From: Candidatus Tectimicrobiota bacterium
GTDB taxonomy: Bacteria > JACPSX01
DNA length: 7,001 nucleotides
Reading direction: 5' to 3'
Assembly (NCBI GenBank): GCA_016193065.1
Contig: JACPSX010000031.1
Coordinates: forward strand, 1-7,001
Every line of letters begins with the position of its first letter. Position 1 is the stretch's first letter. A program made the position numbers and the translations under genes. Below the pieces are notes generated by a model, which saw only the letters and a list, made by a program, of their open reading frames with translations, was not told the DNA's origin and did not search any database. This document shows, piece after piece, positions 1-7,001 of the stretch.

Positions 1-189
1 GATCCAACCAATGCGAAAGGGATTCAGTCCGTCGAGAAATTGTTTCACGTCGACCTCGAATTGCCCATGCGCGTGACGAACCGCGTCGGAGGCCGCGTGT
101 ATGTCCGGGTTGACCACGGACGGGAACCTCTCGTCAAACAGTGGTACCGCCGCCTGAGACAGCTTTTCCTTTCCCGGTTTAATGTCTAG
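1..189 (+). CDS. C-terminal end of a probable M50-peptidase/HlyD-like membrane protein (partial)
   Basis: Frame 1 is open from the window edge to TAG at 187-189 and gives the last 62 residues of a protein. The tail contains GGRVYVRVDHGREPL followed by QWYRRLRQLFLSRFNV at the very end. From memory, this ending resembles the C-terminus of large proteins annotated as 'putative peptide zinc metalloprotease' or HlyD-like adaptor (M50 site-2-protease-like membrane core plus a biotinyl-lipoyl arm), which are often encoded beside short SecA-like proteins. No catalytic motif (HExxH) is inside the window, so the family call is an inference from a short conserved tail. The stop overlaps the next gene's ATG by 8 nt (ATGTCTAG), which implies translational coupling with the SecA-like gene. 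If the call is right, it would be the inner-membrane and periplasmic part of the export system suggested by the downstream genes. Confidence 0.55.
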   Translation, partial: DPTNAKGIQSVEKLFHVDLELPMRVTNRVGGRVYVRVDHGREPLVKQWYRRLRQLFLSRFNV

Positions 190-2173
190 CGCGCTGCTTG
201 GAACGGAGTTGACGCGGGGGGCCTACCCCGAGCGGGCGGATCCACGGATCGGGCGACTCGATCAGTTCGGCGCCCGCGCGGTGGGAGGGATCGTCCGCTG
301 GGCAAAGCCCCGGCTGCAGCCCCCGGTTCGAATTATCGCGGCGGTCGCCGCCCATGAACCATCTGTCACCGGTCTCAGCGACGAGCAGATCCGGGAGACC
401 TGCCGGGACCTCCGGGTGCGCCTGCGCCGCGAAGGATTTCGGGAGGATTTGGTGGGCCGTTCTTTCGCTCTGGTTCGCGAGGTGGGCAGTCGGACACTGG
501 GCCAGAGGCACTTCGACGTACAACTGATCGGAGGGTGGGTGTTGTTAAACGGCATGGTGGCCGAGATGGAAACGGGGGAGGGGAAGACGCTGACCGCAAC
601 GCTGGCGGCGAGTACGGCGGCGCTGGCGGGCATTCCCGTGCACATCATCACCGTGAACGATTATCTGGCCTCCCGGGACGCGGAGTGGATGGGTCCCATC
701 TACGGCGCCTTGGGCTTGAGCGTCGGTGTGATCAAGCACGGGTTGGATCCCGATGCTCGCCGGGCGGCGTACGCATGCGATGTGGCCTATTGCACGAACA
801 AGGAGATCACCTTTGACTACTTGAAGGACCGGATCGTATTGGGGCGCCAGTCGGGGAGGATTCGCCTCCACCTGGAACGCCTTTACGGGGAGCAGGCACG
901 CATGCGCCGGCTCCTGATGCGCGGCCTTCATTACGCCATCGTGGACGAGGCCGATAGCGTCCTTATCGATGAAGCGCGAACTCCATTGATCATCGCCGGC
1001 GCAGTCAAGTCCGAGCAGGAGCTCCATGTGTATCAGGCGGCGCTCTCCCTGGCCGCGCAGCTCGAGCAGGAGCGCGACTTCATCCTGGATGGACCCGAAC
1101 GAAACATCCGGCTGACTCCGGAGGGCGAAGCGCGACTCGAGGAGATGGCGCGGGTGCTGGGGGGTGTATGGATCGGTCGCCATACCCGAGAGGATCTGGT
1201 GCGCCAGGCCCTGGTCGCGCAGCGGCTCTTCCAGCGCGACAAGCACTACCTGGTGAGGGATGGGAAGGTGGAGATCATCGATGAGTACACGGGTCGCGTG
1301 ATGCCGGATCGGTCCTGGGAGCACGGTCTCCATCAGATCGTTGAGGCGAAGGAAGACTGCCCGCTCACCGATCGGCAGGATCCCTTGGCCCGGATCAGTT
1401 ACCAGCGATTTTTCCGGCGATACTTGAGGCTCTCGGGCATGACCGGGACAGCGCGGGAAGTGGCGGGGGAATTATGGTCGGTGTACCGATTGCCGGTCAT
1501 CTCCGTGCCGACCAACCGGCCCATCCACCGTCACCCATATCGGGACCGCGTTTATCTGACGGCGGAGGAGAAGTGGGAGGCGATTGTCAAGAAGATTGCG
1601 GAAATCCACAAAACCGGGCGCCCGGTCCTCGTGGGCAGCCGTTCGGTGTCGGCCTCGGAGCACCTAAGCGGCCTTCTGACCTCTGCAGGCCTCTCGCACC
1701 AGGTCCTCAACGCCCGTCAGGATCAGGAAGAGGCTGAGATTATCGCTCGCGCGGGGGAACAGGGGCGGATCACCGTCGCGACCAACATGGCCGGCCGGGG
1801 GACGGACATCCGGCTTGGTCCCGGGGTCGCGGACCTGGGGGGGCTCCACGTGATCGCCACGGAACGCCATGATGCGCGCCGCATCGATCGCCAGCTCTTC
1901 GGACGCTGCGGGCGTCAGGGAGATCCAGGCAGCTACCAGGCCATTCTGTCCCTCGAGGATGAAATCGTCTCTCTGGGCGGCGGCCGCTTCTGGCCCCGGC
2001 TCGCCGCCGCCACGGGGAGCAAGGGTAGCCCGCCTGCTCAGCCCGTAGCGAATTTCGCCGTCCGGCGGGCGCAGCGCGCCGCAGAACGACTGCACTCGCG
2101 GATACGGCGGGATCTGCTGAAAATGGACCAGATGTTGGGGTCCTCACTGGCCTTTACCGGGCGGATAGAATAA
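182..2173 (+). CDS. Short SecA-like preprotein translocase ATPase (accessory SecA)
   Basis: This is a 663-residue DEAD-box motor of the SecA family. Visible parts in order are: the Q-motif region FDVQLIGG (111-118), Walker A TGEGKT (131-136), VNDYLASRDAEWMGP (158-172), the DEAD box VDEAD (254-258) with DEARTPL nearby, the PPXD substrate-binding domain (about 266-375, ending near IDEYTGRVMPDRSWEHGLHQ), SGMTGTA (418-424), and NBD2 with NMAGRGTD (535-542) and the arginine-finger motif RRIDRQLFGRCGRQGDPGS (566-584). Both nucleotide-binding domains look intact. Housekeeping SecA proteins are about 800-900 residues. This one stops about 40 residues into the helical scaffold (QRAAERLHSRIRRDLLK), so it lacks the helical wing, the two-helix finger and the zinc-binding tail. 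GRCGRQGD replaces the usual GRSGRQGD. The start at 182 overlaps the previous stop and has no clear Shine-Dalgarno, which fits coupling. Its neighbours (TolC, HlyD adaptor) suggest a dedicated export role rather than general secretion. Confidence 0.93.
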   Translation: MSSALLGTELTRGAYPERADPRIGRLDQFGARAVGGIVRWAKPRLQPPVRIIAAVAAHEPSVTGLSDEQIRETCRDLRVRLRREGFREDLVGRSFALVREVGSRTLGQRHFDVQLIGGWVLLNGMVAEMETGEGKTLTATLAASTAALAGIPVHIITVNDYLASRDAEWMGPIYGALGLSVGVIKHGLDPDARRAAYACDVAYCTNKEITFDYLKDRIVLGRQSGRIRLHLERLYGEQARMRRLLMRGLHYAIVDEADSVLIDEARTPLIIAGAVKSEQELHVYQAALSLAAQLEQERDFILDGPERNIRLTPEGEARLEEMARVLGGVWIGRHTREDLVRQALVAQRLFQRDKHYLVRDGKVEIIDEYTGRVMPDRSWEHGLHQIVEAKEDCPLTDRQDPLARISYQRFFRRYLRLSGMTGTAREVAGELWSVYRLPVISVPTNRPIHRHPYRDRVYLTAEEKWEAIVKKIAEIHKTGRPVLVGSRSVSASEHLSGLLTSAGLSHQVLNARQDQEEAEIIARAGEQGRITVATNMAGRGTDIRLGPGVADLGGLHVIATERHDARRIDRQLFGRCGRQGDPGSYQAILSLEDEIVSLGGGRFWPRLAAATGSKGSPPAQPVANFAVRRAQRAAERLHSRIRRDLLKMDQMLGSSLAFTGRIE

Positions 2174-2192
2174 CCAAGGGAACATAGGTCTG

Positions 2193-2233
2193 CCCCTTTC
2201 TCCCTGGAAGGGGGGAGGATGAAGGTGAGGGGG
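2193..2233. repeat. Copy of a widespread palindromic intergenic repeat (REP-like)
   Basis: The spacer between the SecA-like and TolC-like genes holds CCCCTTTCTCCC, then a short loop, then GGAAGGGGGGAGG and GAAGGTGAGGGGG. CCCCTT (2193-2198) pairs with AAGGGG (2208-2213). On the reverse strand it reads CCCCCTCACC, CCTCCCCCCTTCC, GGGAGAAAGGGG. This follows the layout of a very common degenerate repeat found between genes in many Gram-negative bacteria (CCCTCACC-n-CCCTCTCCC-n-GGGAGAGGG). The family assignment is from memory. No T-run follows the hairpin, so it is not an obvious terminator. An in-frame ATG at 2219 lies inside this repeat, which argues against it being the tolC-like start. Confidence 0.5.
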
Positions 2234-2243
2234 TATGGCAGAA

Positions 2244-2249
2244 GGGAGG
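2244..2249 (+). promoter_or_regulatory. Ribosome binding site that decides the tolC-like start
   Basis: GGGAGG lies 5 nt before ATG 2255, an ideal Shine-Dalgarno spacing. The alternative in-frame ATG at 2219 has its purine run (GGGGGGAGG) directly abutting it with no spacer, and lies in a repeat. This favours 2255. Confidence 0.6.
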
Positions 2250-2254
2250 GAAGT

Positions 2255-3940
2255 ATGCGCAAGATGGTTCTTCTGGTCTTTTTTCTTTCGCTGATCCAAA
2301 TCCTGTCCCTTCCGGAGTTTCTCCTGGCGCAGGGACTCCCAAACCGGAGTCCGAATGGAAGTTTCGGTGGGGTAGCGGGCGGGCGGGATGGCGTAGTCGA
2401 CATCGAGCTGAAAAAACCGCCTTTACAGGGGGAGATCCGTTTGTTCCTGCGCAGGGCGGTGGAGTTGGCCCTGGAGCGCAGCCCAGCCCTGGTCGTGGAG
2501 AAAATCCGGCTGGAGCAGGAACGCACGAAGATTGTTGAGCAAAAAGGGGAGTTTGATCCGACGGTGAGCTTCTCTTCGACGGCGGCGGAAAGAGAGAATG
2601 TCAACGCGAGCCGGTTTTTCCCCTCGGGAACCTACGTTGAGAAGGAAAGAACCCAAGAGCTCGGCTTCAAGGGGAAGATTTTCGCCGGGGGAAAATACGA
2701 GAGCACTTTTCGCTTTCAGGAGCTCAAGTCAACCTCCAACACGCAGACTTTGAGTCCCCAGTACGGCCCCACCCTGAGCTTTAATTTTTCTCAACCGTTC
2801 CTGCGCGACTTCGGCCTGGATGCGAATCTCTCCCGTATCCGGGTGGCGCAAAAGGGAGAGGAGATTGCCGAGCAGGACCTGGCTTTGCAACTGTCCGGGA
2901 TGATCCAAAAAGTCGTGGAGGCCTACTGGAACCTGTTGTTCCTGCGACAGGACCTGGAAGTGAAAAACGTGGGACTTGATTTCGCCAAAGCATTGCTGCG
3001 GCAAAACGAAGATCTTTTCCGGGCGGGGAAGGTAGCTCAGGTGAGCGTCCAGGAGGCCCGGGCGGGGGTTGCGGAGCGCGAGGAAGCGGTGATTGTTGCG
3101 GAGAATGAGGCGAGAAAGGGAGAGGATCAGTTGAAACTGCTCCTTTACACGGGGCTGGAGGGCGTAAGTCTAGTGCATCTGGACACCCTGAGGGACGAGC
3201 CGATCGACCTGGATGTCAGGAAAAGCGTGGAACTGGCCTTACTGAAAAGACCGGAGATCGTGCGTCTGAGAAGGATCGTGGAACAGAAGAAGATCGAGGA
3301 GAAGTTCGCATCAAACCAGAAGCTCCCACGCCTGGATCTGACCGCCCAGTACAACATGGTGGGACTCTCCGGAAAACCCAGCAGCACCCCGATCAGTCCC
3401 GGTGGGCCCAGCGCGGGATCCCTGGTGGCGGGCTCCGCCTTCGAGGACAAAACTCACCCGATAGACGCCTTTAACAAGTTTTTCACCCGGGACGGGTTTG
3501 ATCAGTGGCTGGTGGGGATCAAGCTGGAGTTTCCCTTGGGCAACCAGACCGCCAAGGCAAAGATGACCGAAGCGACCCTGAGTTTAATGGAGGCGCAGAG
3601 CGGCCTTCACCGCCTGGAGGAAGAGACATCCGTGCAAGTAAGAAACGCAATTCGAGATGTACTCACGGCCCGCAAACGGATTGAGGCAACCCGGGCCTCT
3701 ATGAGGCTGTTCGAAGAGCAGCTCGGCGGGACACGGAAGAAATTCGAGGCAGGCATCGCGACCAGCTATGAGGTGCTCAAAGTTCTGGACGATCTGGCCA
3801 CGGCAAAGACGAGGGAATTGAAGGCACTGATGGACTATAATGTTGGCAAGACCGCGCTCAACGTAGCCGAAGGCAGTGTTTTGGAGAAATTCGATGTGGA
3901 GATCGGGAAGCCGCCGCGCTATGTGTTCAAGAATTATTGA
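2255..3940 (+). CDS. TolC-family outer-membrane efflux/secretion channel protein
   Basis: From ATG 2255 the product is 561 residues. It opens with MRK and a hydrophobic stretch (residues 4-24) ending in LLAQG, a classical Sec signal peptide for export to the outer membrane. Two outer-membrane efflux protein (OEP) repeats are visible. The first (about 61-300) runs from IRLFLRRAVELALERSPAL through a beta region and the helical AYWNLLFLRQDLEV (223-236) to LFRAGKVAQVSVQEA. The second (about 318-541) begins LDVRKSVELALLKRPEI and ends with FEAGIATSYEVLKVLDDLA. A Gly/Ser/Pro-rich stretch (about 370-397) fits an external loop before the GIKLEFPLGN strand. Two tandem repeats of long helices plus beta strands are the TolC design: a trimeric channel across the outer membrane and periplasm. 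An in-frame ATG at 2219 would add 12 residues, but it falls in an intergenic repeat. The adaptor gene follows 41 nt after the stop, as expected for an export pair. Confidence 0.92.
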   Translation: MRKMVLLVFFLSLIQILSLPEFLLAQGLPNRSPNGSFGGVAGGRDGVVDIELKKPPLQGEIRLFLRRAVELALERSPALVVEKIRLEQERTKIVEQKGEFDPTVSFSSTAAERENVNASRFFPSGTYVEKERTQELGFKGKIFAGGKYESTFRFQELKSTSNTQTLSPQYGPTLSFNFSQPFLRDFGLDANLSRIRVAQKGEEIAEQDLALQLSGMIQKVVEAYWNLLFLRQDLEVKNVGLDFAKALLRQNEDLFRAGKVAQVSVQEARAGVAEREEAVIVAENEARKGEDQLKLLLYTGLEGVSLVHLDTLRDEPIDLDVRKSVELALLKRPEIVRLRRIVEQKKIEEKFASNQKLPRLDLTAQYNMVGLSGKPSSTPISPGGPSAGSLVAGSAFEDKTHPIDAFNKFFTRDGFDQWLVGIKLEFPLGNQTAKAKMTEATLSLMEAQSGLHRLEEETSVQVRNAIRDVLTARKRIEATRASMRLFEEQLGGTRKKFEAGIATSYEVLKVLDDLATAKTRELKALMDYNVGKTALNVAEGSVLEKFDVEIGKPPRYVFKNY

Positions 3941-3968
3941 CGGGCAGCGGGCGCGATTCGGGCGAGAT

Positions 3969-3975
3969 GGAGGGG
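3969..3975 (+). promoter_or_regulatory. Ribosome binding site that decides the adaptor start
   Basis: GGAGGGG is followed by a 6-nt gap and then TTG 3982. ATG 3967 overlaps this site and has only a weak GGCGAG upstream. The site therefore points to a TTG start, which also yields the tidiest signal peptide. Confidence 0.5.
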
Positions 3976-3981
3976 ATTGAA

Positions 3982-4803
3982 TTGAAAATTGTGGGGTGTG
4001 CTCTGGCATCCGTATTCTTCCTGTTATCTTCTGCCTCCGCCGCTCCGCTCAGGGCTGCGGGGGTGGTTCGTGCCCAGGATGAGGTTGTGGTGAAGAGCGA
4101 GGCTAGCGGGATCCTCTGGAACATCCGGGTCGAGGAAGGACAGCAAGTTCGAGAAGGCCAGCTTCTGGTGGAGCTGAAGAACAATCGGCAGAAAATCGGG
4201 GTGGAACTGGCGCGGGCAAACCTGCTGAAAGCCCAATCCTCCCTGGTGGCATCCAAGGTTGCTTACGAAAACGCGAAGAAGGAGTGGGCCCGGGTCAGCA
4301 TCGCCGGGGATGCGCTGCCGCGCAAGGAATTGGAGGACAAGGAGGATGAAACACTCCGCCTGCAGGCCTTGCTGCAGGTCCAGGAAGGGGAGATCGAGCA
4401 GGCAAAGGCGGAGTTGAAATTGCGGGAAAACGAGCTCACGGAAACGCAGTTGTTGGCACCTTTCAGCGCAGTTGTGACTCAGATCTTCATCCATAAGGGG
4501 GATGCGGTGAGACCCCTGGAAACGCCCGTTTTGGAGTTGGTGGCGCTTGATCGGCTCTACGTGGAGTTGGTTCTGCCGGTGGAGGTCTTGCCACGGGTTC
4601 GCGTGAATCAGCGGGTGAGGGTCCAGACGGAGAGAGAGATTCTCGGCCGCGCGGGAGTTTTGGAAGGGAGGGTGAGCCATATAAATCCCAAGGTGGATGC
4701 CTCGAGCCGCACGTTTTTCGTCAAAGTGATTTTTTCTGATCCGCAAGGTAAAGTACACCCGGGCATGCTGGGCGAGGTCAGTTTCCCCGAGTCGAACCCG
4801 TAG
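3982..4803 (+). CDS. HlyD/RND-type periplasmic adaptor (membrane fusion protein)
   Basis: From TTG 3982 the product is 273 residues. In-frame ATG 3967 would give 278 and TTG 3937, overlapping the tolC-like stop, 288. The N-terminus MKIVGCALASVFFLLSSASA is a good signal peptide (cleavage near residue 21). Next comes a first lipoyl half (about 36-65, ASGILWNIRVEEGQQVREGQ), an alpha-helical hairpin rich in Glu/Lys/Leu/Ala (about 66-155), a second lipoyl half (LLAPFSAVVTQIFIHKGDAV, about 157-176), a beta-barrel (LDRLYVELVLPVEVL onward) and a membrane-proximal segment with SHINPKVDASSRTF and HPGMLGEVSF. This is the usual domain order of RND-type adaptors, which bridge an inner-membrane pump and TolC. 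It is short for the family, lacks an N-terminal membrane helix beyond the signal peptide, and no RND pump is encoded beside it. The inner-membrane partner may be the M50-like product upstream (inference). Confidence 0.88.
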   Translation: MKIVGCALASVFFLLSSASAAPLRAAGVVRAQDEVVVKSEASGILWNIRVEEGQQVREGQLLVELKNNRQKIGVELARANLLKAQSSLVASKVAYENAKKEWARVSIAGDALPRKELEDKEDETLRLQALLQVQEGEIEQAKAELKLRENELTETQLLAPFSAVVTQIFIHKGDAVRPLETPVLELVALDRLYVELVLPVEVLPRVRVNQRVRVQTEREILGRAGVLEGRVSHINPKVDASSRTFFVKVIFSDPQGKVHPGMLGEVSFPESNP

Positions 4804-4892: not shown

Positions 4893-5198
4893 CTTGCCCA
4901 CCCCCAGTTTGCCTAAGAAGGAACAATTGCTATCCCCATCAGCTCCTCGGGGTGCCCCCTTGGGCTCACGAAGCGCTTGCGATGAGACATTTGCCGGCCA
5001 AATCGAGAGGGATTTGCCTCGCAACCGCTTAGATCGCCTGCGGGGGCAACCCCTCGGAGGAGAGAGTACCAAGGGGACTGTCCTTCCTGCCCTGAGCGCA
5101 ACTGCCGGGAGCAGCGGCACCCAGAGGGTACCCGACCGGGAGAAGGGCAGGAAGACAGACCCTTCGCCAGGGATTCGCCAAAAGTGGGGGTGGGTAAG
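4893..5198. mobile_element. MITE-like non-autonomous transposable element, 306 bp, strongly structured
   Basis: The left end CTTGCCCACCCCCAGTTT (4893-4910) and the reverse complement of the right end, CTTACCCACCCCCACTTT (5181-5198), match at 16 of 18 positions. A perfect 10-bp direct repeat flanks the element exactly on both sides. Terminal inverted repeats abutting a target duplication are the signature of DDE-transposase mobilisation, and the size and lack of a credible ORF make it non-autonomous. Direct repeats near 10 bp are known for some IS4-type elements, but I cannot assign a family. Inside are long inverted repeats: 4943-4959 with 5042-5062 (two small bulges), within it 4971-4982 with 5019-5030 (one C-C mismatch) and a hairpin ATTTG/CAAAT (4989-5003), then a second domain 5071-5093 with 5144-5164. 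The rest of the gene-free stretch shows nothing clear at 4804-4882 (only a short GGCC-TTCA-GGCC hairpin at 4868-4879 without a T-run). Confidence 0.75.
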
Positions 5199-5295: not shown

Positions 5296-6264
5296 GTGGA
5301 AATCATTCGCGATTCGAAAGACATTCCCTCTCGTCCTCGAAAGCCGATTCTCACGATCGGAAACTTCGACGGAGTCCACGTGGGGCATCAGTTTATCTTT
5401 CGCAACGTGGCCCAGCAGGCCGACGCCGTGGGGGGGACCAGCATTGCCTTTACCTTTGAACCCCACCCGTTGAAAATTCTCGACCCGGAGCACCTACCGC
5501 CGCGCCTGACCACGGCCAACCAGAAACTGGACATCATGGGGCAGTGTGGCCTCGACATGGCGATTTGTGTGGACTTTACCCGTGAGTTTTCCCGCTTGGC
5601 CCCTGAGGAGTTCGTGCATGAATACCTGTGCAAGCGCCTGGCGGTTTCCGAGGTCTTCGTGGGTGAGGGGTTTGCTTTCGGCCGGGACCGGACGGGCTCC
5701 ATTGCCACATTGCGCAGTCTCTCCCAAACGTGCGGCTTCCAGGTAAACGTCGCCGCGCCGGTAAAACTGGGTCCCCATCGGGTGAGCAGCACTTTGGTCC
5801 GGCAGTGGGTGGAGGAGGGGAGAGTGGATGAAGCGGCTCCTCTCCTCAACCGCCTCTATACCCTGGTCGGAAAGGTGGCCCAGGGGGCGAGCCGGGGCGC
5901 GGCGCTGGGATTTCCCACGGCGAACCTGCTCCCGGGAGAACAACTTCTCCCCAAGCGGGGAGTGTACGCCGCCTATATCGGCTGGCGCGGCATGGAGCTG
6001 CGCGGGGTGGTCAATGTCGGGGTCGCGCCCACCTTCGCGGGGGAACAGGTCCTGGTTGAAGCTCACCTGTTCGACTTTCATCGCGACCTCTACGGCGAGA
6101 CTCTGGAGGTGGGCTTTGTCAAGCGGCTGCGGGATGAGCGCAAATTTCCGCAGGTTGAAGATCTGGTGGCTCAGATCCGCCGCGATGCGGAAGACGCACA
6201 AGCTCTCTTTTCTTCTCTCGAACGAGAGCCCCTGCGCTGGGGCCTGAGGATCCGCAATCTCTAA
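5296..6264 (+). CDS. ribF: Bifunctional riboflavin kinase / FAD synthetase RibF
   Basis: This 322-residue cytoplasmic enzyme phosphorylates riboflavin to FMN and adenylylates FMN to FAD with ATP. The N-terminal FAD-synthetase (nucleotidyltransferase) module shows IGNFDGVHVGHQ (21-32), FEPHP (54-58), VGEGFAFGRDRTG (122-134) and SSTLVR (164-169). The C-terminal riboflavin-kinase module shows GFPTANL (205-211, the PTAN nucleotide-binding motif), RGVYAAY (221-227), NVGVAPTF (240-247), VEAHLFDF (254-261, with the conserved Glu) and DLYG (264-267). The length of about 310-320 residues is normal for the family. The start is GTG 5296, with an AGG-containing site (GGCAGG) about 5 nt upstream; no nearer in-frame ATG precedes the FDG motif. 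It lies 98 nt after the MITE-like element and probably has its own promoter at 5212-5240. The next gene starts 7 nt downstream, so the two are probably co-transcribed. No link to the export genes is evident. Confidence 0.97.
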   Translation: MEIIRDSKDIPSRPRKPILTIGNFDGVHVGHQFIFRNVAQQADAVGGTSIAFTFEPHPLKILDPEHLPPRLTTANQKLDIMGQCGLDMAICVDFTREFSRLAPEEFVHEYLCKRLAVSEVFVGEGFAFGRDRTGSIATLRSLSQTCGFQVNVAAPVKLGPHRVSSTLVRQWVEEGRVDEAAPLLNRLYTLVGKVAQGASRGAALGFPTANLLPGEQLLPKRGVYAAYIGWRGMELRGVVNVGVAPTFAGEQVLVEAHLFDFHRDLYGETLEVGFVKRLRDERKFPQVEDLVAQIRRDAEDAQALFSSLEREPLRWGLRIRNL

Positions 6265-6271
6265 CTCCGGA

Positions 6272-7001
6272 ATGATCCGCAAAGTCGGGCTGGGACTTTT
6301 CCTGAGCGCCGTGTTTACGGTGCTCTTGCTGCGCAACGTCAGTTGGGCCGATCTCCGGGAATCCCTGGCCAGGGTGAATTACTGGATCATCGTCCCTCTG
6401 ACCGCCATGACCCTCTTTAGCACTCTCCTGCGGTCCTGGCGCTGGCTCTATCTCCTGGCTCCGGTGAGACCCGTTGGCGTCGTGAGATTGTTCTCGGCGA
6501 ATTCCATCGGCCTCATGGCCAATATGATCTTTCCCGCCCGCCCGGGGGAATTTGTCCGCGCTTACGTCCTGGGGCACTTTGCCTCTGACGGAGGACATCC
6601 GCCGGCTCCTGCGCCTGGGGGGATGGCTCTCTTTTCTGCTTTATGTCGGGCTTCTCGCATTTCTGGTTTTACTTCGCCAGAAGCCGGAGCTGGCCCATGC
6701 GGTTATCCACAAGGCGTTGTTCTGGACCTCGGCGGGATTGCGCCACCGGGTCCGGGAACTGATGGATTCCTTTTCGATGGGGCTCCGGGTCCTTGGCAGC
6801 CCGGGTCACTCCCTCGGAGTGGCACTCTTCTCGGCTATCCTCTGGGTGTTTTATGCATTCATCAATTACGTAATCCTGGCCTTTTTTGGACTCCAGATCC
6901 CCGTGGCGGGACTTTTTCTCCTGATGGTCTTCCAGGCTTTTGGGGTCATGCTCCCCTCTTCTCCCGGCTTTGTGGGGACCTATCATGCCGCCACCGTAGC
7001 A
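6272..7001 (+). pseudogene. Flippase-like / LPG-synthase-type membrane protein (UPF0104-like), frameshifted and internally deleted, partial at right
   Basis: From ATG 6272, frame 2 gives 103 good residues: TM helices near 4-21 and 37-52, then LRSWRWLYLLAPV, a SIGLMANMIFPARPGEFVRAYVLGH block and F. This matches the N-terminal part of the lysylphosphatidylglycerol-synthase TM / flippase-like family, integral inner-membrane proteins often linked to lipid or polyprenyl-carrier translocation. After 6580, frame 2 turns into a Gly/Pro-rich non-membrane sequence, while frame 3 (from about 6579 to the edge) reads LPLTEDIRRLLRLGGWLSFL, more TM helices, MDSFSMGLRVL and AFGVMLPSSPGFVGTYHAA, typical of the same family's C-terminal half. 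The usual segment between the halves (roughly 35-40 residues with an SxxLATxxxERxxDG-like motif) is absent in all frames. I read this as a deletion of a length not divisible by three, or an assembly fault. It starts 7 nt after ribF, with only a weak GGA as ribosome binding site. Confidence 0.75.

Follow-up and report, generated by a model that had tools for sequence, protein, structure and literature searches.

The 7,001-base window analysed here is the entire contig C14 (JACPSX010000031.1) of the fragmented 2.9-Mb assembly of Candidatus Tectimicrobiota bacterium, and it covers the 3' portion of a cassette that encodes a short secondary SecA-like ATPase beside an M50/HlyD membrane protein, a TolC-family channel and an HlyD-type adaptor. 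The features of the cassette, in order, are:

1..189, + strand: 3' end (62 codons and the stop, frame 1) of a PqqD/M50/HlyD membrane protein gene, aligning to the end of a family of 715 amino acids.
182..2173, + strand: short secondary SecA-like ATPase of 663 amino acids, with SecA profile matches and intact Walker A and DEADS motifs.
182..189, + strand: overlap of 8 bases between the SecA start and the upstream stop, compared across 47 loci.
2219..3940, + strand: TolC/OEP-family outer-membrane channel of 573 amino acids (PF02321, 7.2e-45).
3937..4803, + strand: HlyD-type periplasmic adaptor of 288 amino acids (PF16576, HlyD_D23/HlyD_3, 8.5e-20).

The four genes share one strand. Profile matches and open reading frames confirmed the initial annotation, which had described a SecA-like ATPase overlapping an M50/HlyD-like tail and followed by TolC and an HlyD adaptor, with no pump; a Pfam profile search detected no ABC, RND or MFS pump gene among the genes of the window. 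The M50/HlyD tail was matched to the end of the 715-residue M50/HlyD proteins (72.5 bits, E 8.9e-20), and its gene cannot be completed here because the window spans the whole contig. The TolC-family protein also matches TIGR01844 (4.6e-29, under the cut-off of that model), and the adaptor matches TIGR01730 (RND_mfp) above its cut-off. The start of the adaptor is listed as TTG; by hydropathy, a later ATG at about 3967 would place a hydrophobic signal segment at the N-terminus.

The window SecA matches the Pfam profiles SecA_DEAD (1.5e-106), SecA P-loop (1.7e-58) and SecA_PP_bind (1.2e-27) and no other SecA domain; the scaffold/wing domain SecA_SW gave no Pfam match. Both nucleotide-binding domains and the preprotein-binding domain are kept, Walker A (TGEGKT, about nucleotides 572-589) and the DEADS box (about nucleotides 944-958) are intact, and the protein scores under every SecA family cut-off, PRK-type limits included. 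Walker A, the DEAD box and the motif VI arginines (TGEGKT, DEADS, ATNMAGRGTDI, GRCGRQGD) are likewise intact in essentially all the short SecA members. In both sequence and structure comparison, similarity to known SecA reaches only as far as residue 604-616 in the SecA of B. subtilis, and the AlphaFold model of the window protein (predicted local distance difference test, pLDDT, 81) terminates in one long, first scaffold helix; therefore, the helical wing, the two-helix finger and the C-terminal tail are missing. The same three elements are absent from all 18 aligned short SecA members, whose lengths are 655-685 amino acids, compared with 764-1,213 for the housekeeping SecA frames. Model residues 14-616 fit the SecA of the SecA-SecY complex 6itc (Z 41.5, root-mean-square deviation 3.0, 593 residues aligned), and by sequence the nearest PDB entry is C. 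difficile SecA2. A tree built from 47 short and 30 housekeeping SecA proteins united the short ones in a single group (support 1.0) with no housekeeping SecA within it, and the window SecA clustered with the Desulfobacterota loci L009, L010, L012 and L025. The genome of the window has two SecA_DEAD genes in total, its housekeeping SecA being encoded on a separate contig (C282). The exact overlap of 8 bases with the upstream gene recurs in 22 of the 47 loci compared, and an overlap of 4 bases in many others, pointing to translational coupling of the M50/HlyD protein and SecA.

Eighteen related loci were found with the window SecA protein, in Desulfobacterota, Gamma-, Beta- and Alphaproteobacteria and one Opitutaceae (Verrucomicrobium) genome. 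The cassette is kept in all of them (truncated in one), and also in further Gammaproteobacteria and on closed plasmids. The genes are conserved together across these groups, a point on which the initial annotation could have failed. Its fuller order is DUF3467 – GAF-HlyD – PqqD/M50/HlyD – short SecA – adaptor (– TolC). The gene preceding SecA encodes the 715-residue PqqD/M50/HlyD protein in 18 of 18 loci; the GAF-HlyD gene lies upstream of it in 16, with a fragment in a seventeenth, and is itself preceded by a DUF3467 gene in some loci. An HlyD-type adaptor follows SecA in most related loci. TolC adjoins only a minority of the related cassettes, being in the same gene run in L011, L012, L015, L025 and a Methylosinus plasmid. 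The assignment of the upstream gene as M50/HlyD-like proved correct: each of the 15 full-length relatives has HExxH and, as a second motif, NxNPLLRxD, and the family has about seven predicted membrane helices plus an HlyD barrel-hairpin domain, which in the model fits MacA/AcrA (Z 13-15). In both members compared with the Pfam model, an N-terminal PqqD domain scores above the cut-off. When the whole model was compared with the PDB, the HlyD part was matched well, the PqqD-like part reached about Z 10 to entries of other function, and the membrane part was scarcely covered; among NCBIfam models, the M50 part comes closest to the daptide intramembrane metalloprotease (7e-46, short of the cut-off).

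No ABC or RND pump gene was found inside the cassette of the relatives, in agreement with the earlier expectation that none lies just upstream, and a motif scan of 57 loci detected ABC genes at just four, in each case beyond the cassette. Two more distant finds were not counted as cassette parts: a full-length ABC gene about 3-5 kb upstream of a divergent cassette (L223), and an RND pair at a distance of about 16 kb from the cassette in Pseudosulfitobacter. On the Pseudosulfitobacter plasmid, a SapC-family gene (L231, 18869-19690) lies between M50/HlyD and the short SecA. On several plasmids (L228-L232), the short SecA is publicly annotated as 'prepilin peptidase' or 'DEAD/DEAH box helicase', so that a search by name misses the cassette.

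Genes for giant proteins of the LEPR-XLL type are found beside the cassette. Nineteen genomes were searched with NCBIfam NF012209 (LEPR-8K, 'LEPR-XLL domain'), and 14 gave matches above cut-off. The giant gene shares a contig with the cassette in nine of the 18 related loci (as judged by identical contig size and consistent position), adjoining it in most and about 6 kb off in L012, and it is located either upstream of the cassette or at its other side. The proteins often have 6,000–13,000 amino acids (6,258, 6,855, 8,616, 8,640 and 12,340 in same-contig examples), with RTX, Calx-beta, T1SS-143 or cadherin-like repeats in some of them. Closed plasmids of Methylosinus, Mesorhizobium, Pseudosulfitobacter and Pontibrevibacter encode the giant (8,847-12,918 amino acids) and the cassette in a single gene run: giant, usually DUF3467, GAF-HlyD, PqqD/M50/HlyD, short SecA and adaptor, with a terminal TolC in Methylosinus. 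A LEPR/MEPR motif is N-terminal in all four plasmid giants with a readable N-terminus; on a fifth plasmid, the reading frame of the giant spans the record start. Among the 44 motif-bearing N-termini collected, the motif mostly stands behind a basic stretch, and a strong hydrophobic signal core is lacking (median peak 1.1, compared with 2.3 for the window adaptor and 2.7 for the window TolC). Genes for GGDEF/EAL proteins and hybrid histidine kinases adjoin LEPR giants at three loci (L171 12283-17197, L172 3907-8819, L218 3021-6146), hinting at control of LEPR surface proteins by cyclic di-GMP.

The association extends beyond single loci. A sample of 369 Gammaproteobacteria drawn evenly from the class (short SecA defined as E <= 1e-228) included 13 genomes with a short SecA, 35 with LEPR proteins and 10 with both; LEPR proteins were present in 10 of the 13 short-SecA genomes compared with 25 of the 356 others (Fisher p 4e-9, uncorrected for phylogeny). 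This threshold undercounts divergent short SecA proteins, such as those of G247 and G376, which score about 700 bits and are encoded next to M50. The 25 LEPR genomes lacking a thresholded short SecA include 21 with an M50/HlyD relative, and in several of these 21 a divergent short SecA directly follows it. In a domain-wide sample of 386 genomes, LEPR proteins were present in seven; cassette and giant are adjacent in one (G278), and two (G247, G376) have the pair of M50 and short SecA.

The gene content, conserved order, domain make-up, intact motifs and association with LEPR giants suggest that the window probably holds the 3' portion of a cassette dedicated to secreting LEPR-tagged giant proteins, a reading drawn from sequence comparison. 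We infer that the giants are the substrates, in what order they are handled, which component forms the pore and that the leader is cleaved. The giant, repeat-rich surface protein, with its basic N-terminus and LEPRxLLSAD motif, would stay unfolded in the cytoplasm, where the DUF3467 protein perhaps takes part, and the PqqD-like (RRE) domain on the M50/HlyD protein would recognise the N-terminus of the giant. The short SecA, with its motor and preprotein-binding domain, would then push the chain through a channel that consists of, or is assembled around, the M50/HlyD protein, and the HlyD domains of the M50 protein, of the GAF-HlyD protein and of the separate adaptor would provide the link to TolC. 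Trimming of the LEPR leader may fall to the M50 site. It had been proposed in the initial annotation that SecA and the M50 protein together replace the pump; the gene set, its order and the pump-free cassette agree with this, but the replacement step is one that we infer and the idea is not new (PMC4452313). More tentatively, the cassette could possibly represent a distinct giant-protein secretion system, in which a PqqD-type domain on the M50/HlyD protein reads an N-terminal LEPR tag in place of a C-terminal type I signal, and a finger-less SecA drives the chain through a channel that involves neither SecYEG nor an ABC transporter.

Several observations weigh against a dedicated route. Three of the 13 short-SecA Gammaproteobacteria have no detected LEPR protein, and four of the seven domain-wide LEPR genomes show no M50 partner, indicating that LEPR proteins are not exclusive to the cassette. 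The short SecA is non-adjacent in several LEPR cassettes (L208-L210, L218, L221-L227), and in G713 and G484 it is present but away from the M50 gene. The M50 protein is a putative pore. Within the assembly of the window, searches did not find the remainder of the M50/HlyD gene or a GAF-HlyD gene, and NF012209 found no LEPR protein; the substrate that, by the initial annotation, may be encoded upstream of position 1 has a candidate counterpart in the relatives, where the giant lies there or at the other side, but not in the window's own genome. The absence of the LEPR protein, GAF-HlyD and a complete M50 gene fits a broken assembly. The apparently SecA-free cassettes L208-L210 and L218 were considered as evidence for another motor; the genome search scored few candidates per genome, which bears on these cases, and L208-L210 end inside the giant gene. 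At L223-L227, distant M50/HlyD relatives (260-360 bits) stand alongside proteins with a LEPRLMFDAA-type N-terminus, with no adjacent SecA; these loci are possibly a SecA-independent branch.

Three other explanations were weighed against the dedicated route. In the first, the short SecA acts as an accessory SecA2 that feeds the giants through SecYEG to the periplasm, with M50/HlyD, GAF-HlyD, adaptor and TolC forming a separate second step outward. The close alignment of its motor and preprotein-binding domains with the SecA of a SecY complex, and the retention of a housekeeping SecA in the same genome, speak for this explanation; it is nevertheless unlikely, given that all 18 aligned short proteins have lost the wing, two-helix finger and tail, that the LEPR N-termini are without a strong signal-peptide core, and that the short SecA gene is usually overlap-coupled to the M50/HlyD gene. 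Alternatively, the cassette would mature a protein or peptide and not transport it, the PqqD/M50 protein recognising and cutting its N-terminal leader in the manner of intramembrane proteases of the ribosomally synthesised and post-translationally modified peptide (RiPP) type, with export by another pump. This would suit the combination of a PqqD domain with HExxH and the below-cut-off daptide metalloprotease match, but it leaves the motor ATPase unexplained, and the periplasmic HlyD barrel-hairpin (with its MacA/AcrA fit) on the M50 protein itself, together with two further co-encoded HlyD proteins and sometimes TolC, makes it very improbable. Least probable of all is that the window TolC and adaptor are an ordinary efflux pair, merely neighbouring the SecA gene and served by an ABC or RND pump encoded elsewhere, for despite the adaptor score above the RND_mfp cut-off and the small share of related cassettes that adjoin TolC, such an adaptor follows SecA in most related loci and TolC is in the same run on the Methylosinus plasmid and in L011, L012, L015 and L025.

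Beyond the cassette, the window contains two further genes:

5296..6264: ribF, downstream of the adaptor.
6272..7001: flippase-like (LPG_synthase_TM) gene, after ribF.

The flippase-like gene seems to change frame after about 6590, suggesting a frameshift or a chimeric join, and the last 93 bases of its region match the beginning of contig C200 at 90% identity. An interspersed repeat (4893-5198) separates the adaptor gene from ribF and has more than 40 diverged copies across the assembly (about 68-100% identity, both strands). It holds GGGACTGTCC-like segments, which presumably recall REP-type repeats. No Rfam family matches the repeat, and no Rfam RNA element was detected anywhere in the window.

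A module of this kind was described by Kamneva, Poudel and Ward in 2015 (PMC4452313), as secondary SecA_DEAD proteins without the scaffold/wing domain whose neighbours are M50/HlyD, GAF-HlyD, an adaptor and OEP. These authors noted no ABC transporter in the module, proposed that SecA acts as ATPase and that the M50 protein forms the pore, and called its broader role "completely unknown". For Methylobacterium extorquens AM1, the four genes are listed in that paper. The window shares with it the second SecA_DEAD protein, the loss of SecA_SW, the adjacent M50/HlyD gene (last 62 residues visible) and the single SecA clade. A novelty peculiar to the window was therefore rejected, and the idea of a SecA-powered route is an independent rediscovery. 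That paper names no substrate, and its text contains none of the terms LEPR, giant, RTX, adhesin, PqqD and DUF3467; the LEPR giants, the PqqD domain and DUF3467 are added here. The giants next to the cassette carry the N-terminal motif of the LEPR-XLL domain proteins (NF012209, LEPR-8K) above cut-off. In the papers searched, the LEPR motif is mentioned only briefly, for a Vibrio protein of about 8,000 amino acids that has RTX and serralysin parts at its C-terminus (PMC10868602), and no exporter is assigned to it. No link between the module and LEPR-XLL giants was found in open-access papers (the search did not extend to subscription papers, preprints or the complete NCBIfam family text); as far as found, the 2015 description includes neither the predicted substrate link nor the PqqD domain nor the DUF3467 partner. 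A module known for a decade as an orphan thus gains a concrete candidate substrate class, which is among the largest bacterial proteins and is without a strong signal-peptide core. If true, the route would give a testable function to the LEPR-XLL, PqqD/M50/HlyD and DUF3467 proteins, families now labelled in databases as 'prepilin peptidase', 'DEAD/DEAH box helicase', 'PqqD family protein' or 'unknown function'.

Two better-known systems resemble the cassette in part. Gram-positive accessory SecA2 is likewise a second SecA with an intact motor, and the C. difficile protein is the best PDB match of the window SecA, but the short SecA is without wing, finger and tail and has HlyD, M50 and TolC partners instead of SecY2/Asp. 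With the type I secretion system (ABC-HlyD-TolC) the cassette shares the HlyD adaptor and TolC, and several of the giants have RTX, T1SS-143 or Calx-beta parts; unlike that system, it has no ABC protein, a SecA-like motor and an M50/HlyD membrane protein being encoded instead, so that SecA would, if the proposed route is true, have been reused as the motor of a tripartite exporter.

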